Below, in pieces: positions 40,538 to 44,259 of a stretch of 61,601 nucleotides of DNA (the first letter of the stretch is position 1; every line of letters starts with the position of its first letter). Source of the stretch: Candidatus Uhrbacteria bacterium (lineage in GTDB: Bacteria; Patescibacteriota; Patescibacteriia; 2-12-FULL-60-25); the NCBI GenBank assembly GCA_003231955.1, contig QIKL01000063.1:1-61601 (forward strand), read 5' to 3'. Below the pieces are notes generated by a model. That model did not search any database, was not told the DNA's origin, and saw only the letters and a list, made by a program, of their open reading frames with translations. The position numbers were made by a program, and so were the translations under genes.

Positions 40538-41170
40538 TCAAATATTACGATAAAGCGACTCAAATGCAGGCACTGTTTCCTTCCAAAATACGAGTGTTTG
40601 ATTACCGACAACGTCCACAAGATTCAACGAATTCACAGAAACAAGTTTAATGTTTGGAAGATTGCGCACCATACGCAAGAGATTCGGATCCGATTTTGGA
40701 ATAACTACCAGTGTCTTCCGCACGATAGGAAGTTTTGTAAAAAGTTCTACGGCAAACTTTGTCTTTACCTCTTTCGGTATAAAATCTTCAAGGATCAAAA
40801 GCCTGTCATCATGAACCTTATCGGAGAGTGCCATAAAAAGCGCTTTCTGTTTGGCTTTGCGATTGACTTTCACCGAGAAGTTACGTGTATTCCTTGGCCC
40901 AAATACAACACCGCCGCCCGCCCATTGCGGAGATCGAATAGATCCCTGACGTGCGCGACCTGTCCCTTTTTGGCGCCATGGTTTTTTTCCTCCACCGCGA
41001 ACTTCGCCACGTGTTTTCGTGTGAGCGATCGGGCGACGAGCATTAGCTTGCTGAGCGACTACAACCTCGTGGACGAGCTCTGACTTAACTTTCACACCAA
41101 AAAATTTCGGATTGAGCTCAAGCTCACCTGTCACTTTGCCGTCCTGATTGTAAATAGTAGCTTTCGGCAT
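40538..41170 (-). CDS. rplD: 50S ribosomal protein L4 (uL4)
   Basis: The 210-residue protein has the tunnel loop RRPIAHTKTRGEVRGGGKKPWRQKGTGRARQGSIRSPQWAGGG (about residues 50-93) and a C-terminal Rossmann-like domain. In E. coli L4 represses its own operon by binding an mRNA leader. A structured leader lies two genes upstream here, before rplC. Confidence 0.96.
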   Translation of the reverse strand: MPKATIYNQDGKVTGELELNPKFFGVKVKSELVHEVVVAQQANARRPIAHTKTRGEVRGGGKKPWRQKGTGRARQGSIRSPQWAGGGVVFGPRNTRNFSVKVNRKAKQKALFMALSDKVHDDRLLILEDFIPKEVKTKFAVELFTKLPIVRKTLVVIPKSDPNLLRMVRNLPNIKLVSVNSLNLVDVVGNQTLVFWKETVPAFESLYRNI

Positions 41171-41175
41171 ATAAT

Positions 41176-41781
41176 TTAGATCGTTCGAATCTCAACGACG
41201 GCATTTCGCGGGCCTGGAACTGCACCTTTGACGGCGATCACACCACCATCACGAACCTCAATAACCTCCAGATTCTTTACTGTAACCATATCACCACCCA
41301 TACGACCCGGCTTTTTTGTTCCTTTTAACACGTGCTGAACGCCACCAGGCCCCGAAGACCCCGGCATTCGCGCCTGGTCCTTATGGCCATGTGATGCTGG
41401 ATGGCCACGAAAGTGATATCGCCTAACCACGCCTTGAAACCCCTTTCCCTTAGACGTTCCAGTAACCTCAATCATATCTCCTGGCGCAAATACGACCGCA
41501 TCAATCATGTCACCGCGATTGTATGCCGAGGAGTCTTCAACACGGAACTCCCGAAGAACTCTCATCACTTGCGGAAGATCCTTTTGATGACCAGCTTCTG
41601 GTTTTGAAGGCTTCTTCGCAGGTTGAAAACCAATTTGGACCGCGGTATAGCCATCATGGTCATCATTCTTCACTTGAGTAATGACACAGGGGCCAGCTTG
41701 AACCAAGGTCACAGGAACGACTGCGCCGTCTGGACGAAATACCTGTGACATCTCAAGTTTTTTCGCGAGAATGAATTTCAT
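41176..41781 (-). CDS. rplC: 50S ribosomal protein L3 (uL3)
   Basis: The start MKFILAKKLEMSQVF at 41781 matches the family; the open frame upstream runs through the structured leader. Conserved parts are the VTGTSKGKGFQGVVRRYHFRG loop, ASHGHKDQ, GSSGPGG and KPGRMGGDMVTVKNLEV. The protein is 201 residues and reaches the peptidyl transferase centre. Confidence 0.96.
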   Translation of the reverse strand: MKFILAKKLEMSQVFRPDGAVVPVTLVQAGPCVITQVKNDDHDGYTAVQIGFQPAKKPSKPEAGHQKDLPQVMRVLREFRVEDSSAYNRGDMIDAVVFAPGDMIEVTGTSKGKGFQGVVRRYHFRGHPASHGHKDQARMPGSSGPGGVQHVLKGTKKPGRMGGDMVTVKNLEVIEVRDGGVIAVKGAVPGPRNAVVEIRTI

Positions 41782-42030
41782 ACATCCGTTATGAGTATGT
41801 CCGACAATGCGGACAGTTGTCTGGAATGAATCTGACAATACGTAAAGGCCAGAAGCGCGGATCATGTCCTGATGATATGAGCCACGCTTCTGGCCTCTCT
41901 GCGACGTGAAAGGCAATTGAATTGTAGATGCAGCGTTTGCTCCATTCACATCAAGGAGGTTATGCCAGTCTCACGTCGCGCGTGAGGATTTTCCGTTTTC
42001 ACGGGTGGGCAACTTACTCCTTGGGATGGA
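41782..42030 (-). promoter_or_regulatory. Structured mRNA leader between rpsJ and rplC, candidate autoregulatory element
   Basis: The 325-base gap is exceptional in an operon whose other gaps are 0-51 bases. Read leftward it contains, in order: a closing helix CAAGGAG (42017-42023) with CTCCTTG (41952-41958), extended by GTTGCC/GGC-AT-AAC. Inside it are a CCGT-GAAA-ACGG hairpin (41993-42004) and a CTCACG-CGCGA-CGTGAG hairpin (41970-41986). Downstream is an 11-bp hairpin GGCCAGAAGCG (41885-41895) with CGCTTCTGGCC (41847-41857), then TGTCCG-CATTGT-CGGACA (41798-41815) just before the start. GCGACGTGA (41971-41979) can also pair with TCACGTCGC (41901-41909), which would break the second hairpin. 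A ribosomal-protein-binding switch is inferred. Confidence 0.6.
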
Positions 42031-42106
42031 ACGAACGAGGGTACTGATTTTTATTTTTGATTTGAGATCTTTTAATTTCACGTAACGATCTATTCTTTTT
42101 GATTGA

Positions 42107-42448
42107 TTACATTTTGATCTCGACATCAACTCCAGCTGGCAGATTAAGGCTCGTGAGCGACTCAATCGTCTTGGCGTTAGGATCGAGAATGTCGACAATG
42201 CGCTTATGAATTCGCATCTCGAACTGCTCACGTGCATTTTTATGAACAAACGTCGAACGGTTCACTGTCCATTTCTTCTTCTCCGTCGGGAGCGGGACGG
42301 GACCGACCACATGTGCGCCCGTACGTTCTGCCGTATCAATAATCGTGCGCGTCGACTGATCAATGATCTTGTGATCATACGCGCGGATCTTGATACGAAC
42401 GCGAGGGACAGCAGCTTCCGTCGTCGTTTTTTTCGTTGCTTCAGCCAT
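42107..42448 (-). CDS. rpsJ: 30S ribosomal protein S10 (uS10)
   Basis: The 113-residue protein has a short Thr/Lys N-terminal tail, then [30 protein letters not shown] and [24 protein letters not shown] (about residues 20-80). S10 doubles as NusE in transcription antitermination; a NusB partner is encoded at 56252. It follows tuf by 48 bases. Confidence 0.96.
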
Positions 42449-43812: not shown

Positions 43813-44142
43813 TTAATCATGATTTTCATCATCAACAGGCTCCAGATAAAAACGTTCTTCCAGCGGAATATCTGAAGAATCCGTGTCCGAAGAATCCAAA
43901 GATTCTTGTGTATCAAGAGGAATTTTTGTGACGTGATTTACCTGCTGACCAGAAATTGCAGGACTCACGGGAACGGATTGCGGATGAGCCGGCTGCTGCG
44001 AATGGGCAGGATGCCCCTCTCCTATCATGGCCTCAAATTGCTCAAGCGATAAAACGACCATAGGTTCTCGACCTGCGGGATCGGTCATAATAACAGGGAC
44101 GCCCAATTTTCGGGCAGATTCAAAGACGCGTTGGATAGACAT
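43813..44142 (-). CDS. Phd/YefM-antitoxin-like small protein
   Basis: The first 40 residues (MSIQRVFESARKLGVPVIM and TDPAGREPMVVLSLEQFEAMI) resemble the fold and terminal EQFEAM helix of Phd/YefM-type antitoxins. The remaining 65 residues are Pro/His/Gln/Asp/Ser-rich and probably disordered. No toxin frame is adjacent. It lies between fusA and tuf, where a housekeeping role or an autorepressor of the str operon seems as likely as a toxin-antitoxin function. Confidence 0.55.
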   Translation of the reverse strand: MSIQRVFESARKLGVPVIMTDPAGREPMVVLSLEQFEAMIGEGHPAHSQQPAHPQSVPVSPAISGQQVNHVTKIPLDTQESLDSSDTDSSDIPLEERFYLEPVDDENHD

Positions 44143-44259
44143 ATATGTGTATGAAAGACACTTCACCACACGGAAACTTCTTCGGCAAGATACCTCATTA
44201 ACACAACGAAACATCCGCTTATAGAATCCGGAAATTACCTACAGGAATCTTTTTTTATA

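Follow-up and report, generated by a model that had tools for sequence, protein, structure and literature searches.

The 325-nt spacer between rpsJ and rplC in a ribosomal operon of Candidatus Uhrbacteria carries a conserved structured RNA, as comparison with sister genomes indicates, and this RNA is probably a cis-acting ribosomal-protein leader that works as a transcription attenuator within the tuf-rpsJ-rplC transcription unit. To our knowledge, little is known about the regulation of ribosome synthesis in the reduced and mostly uncultured Patescibacteria. The window, that is, the whole stretch of 61,601 nucleotides analysed here, holds this operon on the minus strand, where the genes follow one another as rpsL, rpsG, fusA, a small ORF, tuf, rpsJ, the spacer, rplC, rplD, and onward. 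The parts of the locus referred to most often are the following:

42107-42448, minus strand: rpsJ (Pfam: S10)
42106-41782, minus strand: rpsJ-rplC spacer, 325 nt
41176-41781, minus strand: rplC (uL3), first gene of the putatively regulated unit (Pfam PF00297)
40538-41170, minus strand: rplD (uL4), second gene, encoding a candidate ligand (Pfam PF00573)

The neighbouring intergenic gaps are 48 nt between tuf and rpsJ and 5 nt between rplC and rplD. Since tuf adjoins rpsJ upstream, as it does in the 51 loci examined, a leader at this position would part tuf and rpsJ from the proteins encoded after it. The small ORF between fusA and tuf (43813-44214, minus strand, at most 133 codons) has no Pfam match, and would break up the usual fusA-tuf pair. 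Several simpler explanations of the spacer were considered and set aside. A coding spacer was ruled out, as its length is a multiple of three in only 15 of 53 cases; a leader peptide starting from GGAG-UAAG-UUG was ruled out as well, because the UUG is not conserved (three members depart from it); and a consensus scan for an internal promoter on the minus strand of the spacer returned no sigma-70-like site.

The spacer folds far more stably than its composition predicts, with a minimum free energy of -106.1 kcal/mol, where 100 dinucleotide shuffles gave -76.9 ± 4.9 (z = -5.97) and no shuffle equalled the spacer; this bears out the long structured gap between rpsJ and rplC that the first-pass annotation had pointed to. 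Every element named there is present: the closing helix, the hairpin with the GAAA loop, a second hairpin, an 11-bp hairpin (GGCCAGAAGCG/CGCUUCUGGCC), a hairpin just before the start of rplC, and an exact 9-nt complement between 41971-41979 and 41901-41909. These elements lie where they had been placed in the range 41782-42030, except that the 5' arm of the outermost helix begins at about 42032, just outside that range. The hairpin closest to rplC is as follows:

41798-41815, minus strand: small hairpin UGUCCG/CGGACA 5' of the rplC start, read from the sequence of this genome, not clearly conserved among relatives

Directly 5' of the rplC start, a conserved GCGACCAAUCCGA recurs in seven loci, and GGAYCAAUG or GACCAAU variants of this motif occur before rplC in five more.

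The evidence for a conserved RNA comes from the family of sister genomes within Candidatus Uhrbacteria, from which spacers were taken in the 40 genomes where rplC was found, the window's own included. All 40 spacers carry the same core, CAAGGAG(U/A)AAGUUG ... CAUAACCUCC(C)UG, with few substitutions, while spacer length ranges from 152 to 623 nt. One locus, L025 in genome G014, was set aside from these lengths: an N run in the assembly masks part of rpsJ beside the leader, and its spacer length is uncertain. A covariance model, R1, was built on the first domain of the RNA and searched in a sample of 380 genomes of the class. All 36 family genomes in the sample gave a single match apiece, at places that agree with the rpsJ-rplC spacers, while the roughly 344 other genomes together gave one borderline match (E = 0.01). 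The first-pass annotation had proposed that related spacers be aligned and checked for covariation; when this was done, the spacer proved neither short nor unconserved, with the RNA in 40/40 family members, and the paired positions vary with compensation.

The structural plan of the first domain was derived by folding every family member with P1 held. It consists of an outer helix P0; the helix P1 (GGAG/CUCC, lengthened by CA/UG); an internal loop of (A/U)AAGU opposite UAAC, referred to here as the core internal loop; the helix P2 (UGYY/RRCA); and a three-way junction from which P3 and P4 emerge. In about eight members, P2 is instead a plain hairpin with no three-way junction. The elements are located in the window as follows:

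42025-42032, minus strand: P0 5' arm (GUUCCAUC), scored as own arms against those of other genera
41939-41952, minus strand: P0 3' region (GAUGUGAAUGGAGC), scored in the same way
42017-42023, minus strand: P1 5' arm CAAGGAG; GGAG/CUCC invariant in 40/40, outer pairs changing with compensation
41952-41958, minus strand: P1 3' arm CUCCUUG, pairing with the P1 5' arm
42012-42016, minus strand: core internal loop, strand a, UAAGU; xAAG invariant in 40/40
41959-41962, minus strand: core internal loop, strand b, UAAC, with AAC almost unchanged across the family
42008-42011, minus strand: P2 5' arm UGCC; 98.7% of cells paired, both-side changes in 3 of 4 pairs
41963-41966, minus strand: P2 3' arm GGCA, covarying with the P2 5' arm
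41993-42004, minus strand: P3 hairpin CCGU-GAAA-ACGG with GAAA tetraloop; both-side changes in 6 of 6 pairs among relatives
41970-41986, minus strand: P4 hairpin CUCACG-CGCGA-CGUGAG; both-side changes in 5 of 5 pairs

Covariation in this domain is strong. For P1 to P4, in an alignment of the 40 sequences fitted to the model and thus leaning towards that structure, 93.4% of pair cells hold standard pairs and 16 of 21 pairs have changed on both sides; the covariation score is 0.415, compared with 0.136 ± 0.011 after shuffling (0 of 500 shuffles reached it) and at most 0.11 when the partners are slid by one to three columns. P4 is also recovered in an unfitted MAFFT alignment, where 76-95% of sequences are paired at each of its five pairs. 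The outer helix was assessed by pairing each member's arms either with each other or with the arms of other genera, using an ad hoc best match in short windows whose scores are comparable only with permutations of the same sequences; on this scale P0 reaches 11.61 for its own 5' and 3' arms against 9.37 for arms of other genera (p < 1e-4; about 0.0008 with one member per genus).

Downstream of this domain lie three further elements:

41893-41914, minus strand: P7, proposed antiterminator hairpin, GCCUUUC-ACGUCGCA-GAGAGGC, with joint arm replacement in relatives
41847-41895, minus strand: P5, proposed intrinsic terminator hairpin (-33 kcal/mol), with stem and U-rich tail in 39/40
41841-41846, minus strand: U tract after P5, UUUACG, with at least UUUU in most relatives

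P7, which is located 3' of P0, has had both of its arms swapped jointly in the course of divergence, for example to CCUCUG/CAGAGG (L047, L050, L054), GUUUCCGU/ACGGAAGC (L018), UUCCGUU/GACGGAA (L049), GCCUUG/CGAGGC (L051), and UGGCC/GGCCA (L024). On the same ad hoc scale, read against permutations of the same sequences, its own arms score 15.62 and mixed arms 12.75 (p < 1e-4), and the result is likewise significant with one member per genus. The loop region of P7 (41901-41909) is complementary to the loop and 3' flank of P4 (41971-41979), and comparison among relatives identifies the two as a kissing pair: scored as above and against the same kind of permutation, own partners give 15.27 compared with 13.12 ± 0.41 (0 of 20,000 permutations; median p = 0.0007 with one member per genus), and clear joint replacements of both sides are seen in L046 (GGAUCGAUC/GAUCGAUCC) and L039 (AACGAAC/GUUCGUU). 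In an alignment not fitted to this pairing, covariation is 0.234, as opposed to 0.133 in the controls (0/500) and at most 0.087 when the partners are slid.

The kissing contact accounts for the 9-nt complement, which the first-pass annotation had read as the basis of two exclusive folds. The complementarity is exact, as claimed, but across the family it is generally a loop-loop contact and not an either/or fold; the pairing is unusually long in this genome, and only here does it reach well into the P4 stem. The exclusive folds are accordingly reinterpreted as P7 against P5. P5 directly follows P7, and the GGC at 41895-41893 belongs both to the 3' arm of P7 and to the 5' arm of P5. Because the 3' arm of P7 holds the first bases of P5, the two hairpins cannot both be complete, and the same overlap is seen in most relatives. 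Thus, the arrangement is that of an attenuator, with two mutually exclusive hairpins of which the later is followed by U residues, termination itself being predicted. We consider P7 (antiterminator) and P5 (terminator) most likely to be the true alternative folds, judging from the sequences compared. In several members the overlap is only 2-3 nt, with which P7 and P5 could partly stack instead of excluding each other. It also follows from the roughly eight members without a three-way junction that kissing as described is not essential in all. The suggestion of the first-pass annotation that rplC onward is under an autoregulatory element of its own, apart from tuf-rpsJ, gains a structured leader with compensatory changes in every helix tested and a copy in 40/40 spacers; the switch, most likely P7 against P5, was not part of that description.

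Strong P5 stems (score at least 15) followed by a U tail are present in 34 of the 40 members but in 0.75% of shuffled sequences. The U tract is short, with UUU in this genome and UUUU in most relatives, and a scan for consensus terminators did not call P5. As a separate observation, the lower stem of the terminator-like hairpin, approximately AGAAG...CUUCU, is also found at six loci of other families, and this likeness far outside the family exceeds what pairing alone would require.

From these features, the following mechanism is proposed. By default, P0 to P4 would be folded and the P4 loop would kiss the P7 loop; P7, stabilised by this contact, would sequester the bases with which the 5' arm of P5 begins and keep P5 open, so that RNA polymerase would read on into rplC-rplD-rplW-rplB and the genes after them. 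Once a large-subunit protein encoded in the operon is in excess of its rRNA sites, its binding to the conserved region formed by P1, the core, and P2 would undo the kissing contact and P7, and P5 would form and halt transcription before rplC. Synthesis of tuf and rpsJ upstream would continue, with rplC and what follows it switched off. It is less probable, though worth serious consideration, that the same leader acts on translation or on mRNA stability, with the bound protein preventing access of ribosomes to rplC or coupling to it, and with P5 as a structural or processing hairpin. The uL4 leader of Escherichia coli acts on transcription and translation alike (PMC10931766), this genome has a weak U tract, and the distance from P5 to the start codon is only 8-20 nt in five members. 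However, this distance ranges up to 146 nt (L025 set aside), no feature other than the core is as constant as the P5 stem and its U tail, and the way in which P7 and P5 overlap is attenuator-like. Moreover, 34 of 40 family members have no Shine-Dalgarno-like sequence before rplC (start at 41781 in the window), which makes simple masking of such a site less likely, if still possible. Attenuation of transcription is the reading preferred here.

As for what the attenuator would sense, the action of uL4 on the S10 operon of E. coli and that of bL20 and L10(L12)4 in Bacillus subtilis (PMC10931766) point by analogy to a protein encoded downstream, and a surplus of such a protein bound at the invariant core is most likely the trigger. 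We tentatively favour uL4, short of an even chance, because it is a known regulator of S10 operons. The product of rplC, uL3, is a somewhat more doubtful candidate, considered because its gene is nearest; we know of no bacterial leader that responds to it. Mimicry of the protein's rRNA site, a frequent but not universal trait of ribosomal-protein leaders, was also examined. The 23S and 16S rRNAs of relatives were used, the metagenome-assembled genome itself having no recognisable 23S, and scanning them for the core with its flanking helices yielded no consistent or convincing site. The H99/H100 region of E. coli 23S rRNA (uL3 region), with the sequence GUAAG...CUAACCGG, resembles the leader core, but mimicry of it was dropped, as the family's own 23S reads GGUGUAAG...CAGCCGAGCC. 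A likeness between the internal loop of P5 in short members (UUGGA/UGCAG) and the uL4 site around H19-H20 was judged by eye alone and was not used as evidence.

The failure to find an rRNA mimic would also suit a ligand of another kind, a small molecule or other factor exerting riboswitch-like control over the operon, and riboswitch aptamers, too, typically combine a compact, invariant core with a kissing loop at the periphery. We regard such a ligand as improbable: the RNA is found solely before rplC, in one copy per genome and without a metabolic gene, and in the sources consulted (PMC10931766, PMC7247131) the leaders at ribosomal-protein operons have a ribosomal protein as their known or predicted ligand.

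Outside the family, 42 spacers belonging to other families of the class were examined for the strict core (P1, xAAGN, P2, WAAC, P1'), and 8 of them have it, where shuffled sequences would give 0.43. The sequences of P1 and P2 differ in these eight, as in L167, which reads CAAGGAG-AAAGA-UCUAA...UUAGA-AAAC-CUCCUUG. Long spacers are the rule in the class: at the further loci nearly all measure at least 91 nt, and one measures 10 nt (L175). In other classes of the phylum, the core was present in 2 of 46 upstream regions compared with 0.4 by chance; both matches (L191, L194) come from one family, and a wider spread across other classes is not claimed. A DNA-pattern scan of 84,980 species genomes gave matches mostly in genomes labelled Candidatus Uhrbacteria or Patescibacteria group bacterium, and a further eight in other phyla or bins; these eight were rejected, scoring at most 23.4 bits against 50-82 for rescored true matches and being about as numerous as chance would give. 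Two other sets of loci deserve mention in their own right. Three loci from other families of the class share a different leader, GGUUCUGRGGAUGAYAAUA ... UUAAUCCUCMGAUAACRAUYUGC, seemingly another conserved RNA in the same place, and five loci from other classes have a recurrent AGUCC...GGAAAC hairpin 5' of rplC, possibly a related or a separate leader; in three of these five (L193, L195, L198), no rpsJ was found beside rplC.

The lineages without the core bear on a further explanation, in which P5 is a plain transcript-end signal that terminates part of tuf-rpsJ transcription, or a processing site, with no sensing involved. Several Patescibacteria outside the class have, by eye, a hairpin and a U run before rplC without the core, and core-less lineages exist, one even with the 10-nt spacer mentioned above. 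Yet a plain end signal explains neither the three-way junction and the invariance of the core nor a kissing contact that covaries, and we consider it very improbable as compared with a sensing attenuator.

If the attenuator reading is correct, the largest ribosomal-protein operon of one Patescibacteria family would contain a concrete regulatory RNA whose core is also present in other families of the class. Control of the S10 operon would then be able to shift to an internal position, where it parts EF-Tu and S10 from the large-subunit proteins, and a new protein-RNA recognition element would be gained. It is possible, although we would not go as far as to call it probable, that the RNA represents a new class of Patescibacteria leader inside the str-S10 superoperon, one that uncouples EF-Tu and S10, is sensed by uL3, or by uL4 via an element that has no relation to uL4 leaders already known, and relies on an antiterminator stabilised by a kissing loop.

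A comparison with Rfam ribosomal-protein-leader models, which the first-pass annotation had suggested, gave no leader match: in Rfam 15, only tRNAs reached the gathering score in the window, and nothing relevant appeared at permissive E-values in the window or in relatives. An earlier report of this leader was not found in the open-access literature, the search having left most subscription journals outside its reach. What is found here agrees with ribosomal-protein leaders in general, namely a conserved RNA structure in cis upstream of a ribosomal-protein gene, with covariation. The leader would work like known ribosomal-protein attenuators, yet it lacks the position before rpsJ that defines the E. 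coli uL4 leader and belongs to no Rfam family. One of the closest known systems is the E. coli S10 operon, which uL4 regulates partly by termination in the leader (PMC10931766). There too, rplC-rplD and later genes are controlled, and a leader hairpin with a U run, here P5, fits termination; but the E. coli leader is the 5' UTR of the operon before rpsJ, with rpsJ included in the control, whereas the present one follows rpsJ, and that source (PMC10931766) describes no such core, kissing contact, or antiterminator for E. coli. The B. subtilis leaders of infC-rpmI-rplT (bL20) and rplJL (L10(L12)4) act through alternative terminator and antiterminator folds under ribosomal-protein control (PMC10931766), in other operons and with other proteins, and the present leader has no match to any Rfam leader family. 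The S10 leader of Firmicutes, named in PMC7247131, is likewise a leader of an S10-type operon, compared here solely through the absent Rfam match. Finally, the L4 leader predicted in Archaeoglobi (rplC, rplD, rplW, rplB) also precedes rplC and has uL4 as its guessed ligand (PMC7247131, Table 1); unlike ours, it is archaeal, and it was rated borderline by its authors, the likeness drawn here being one of position and presumed ligand.
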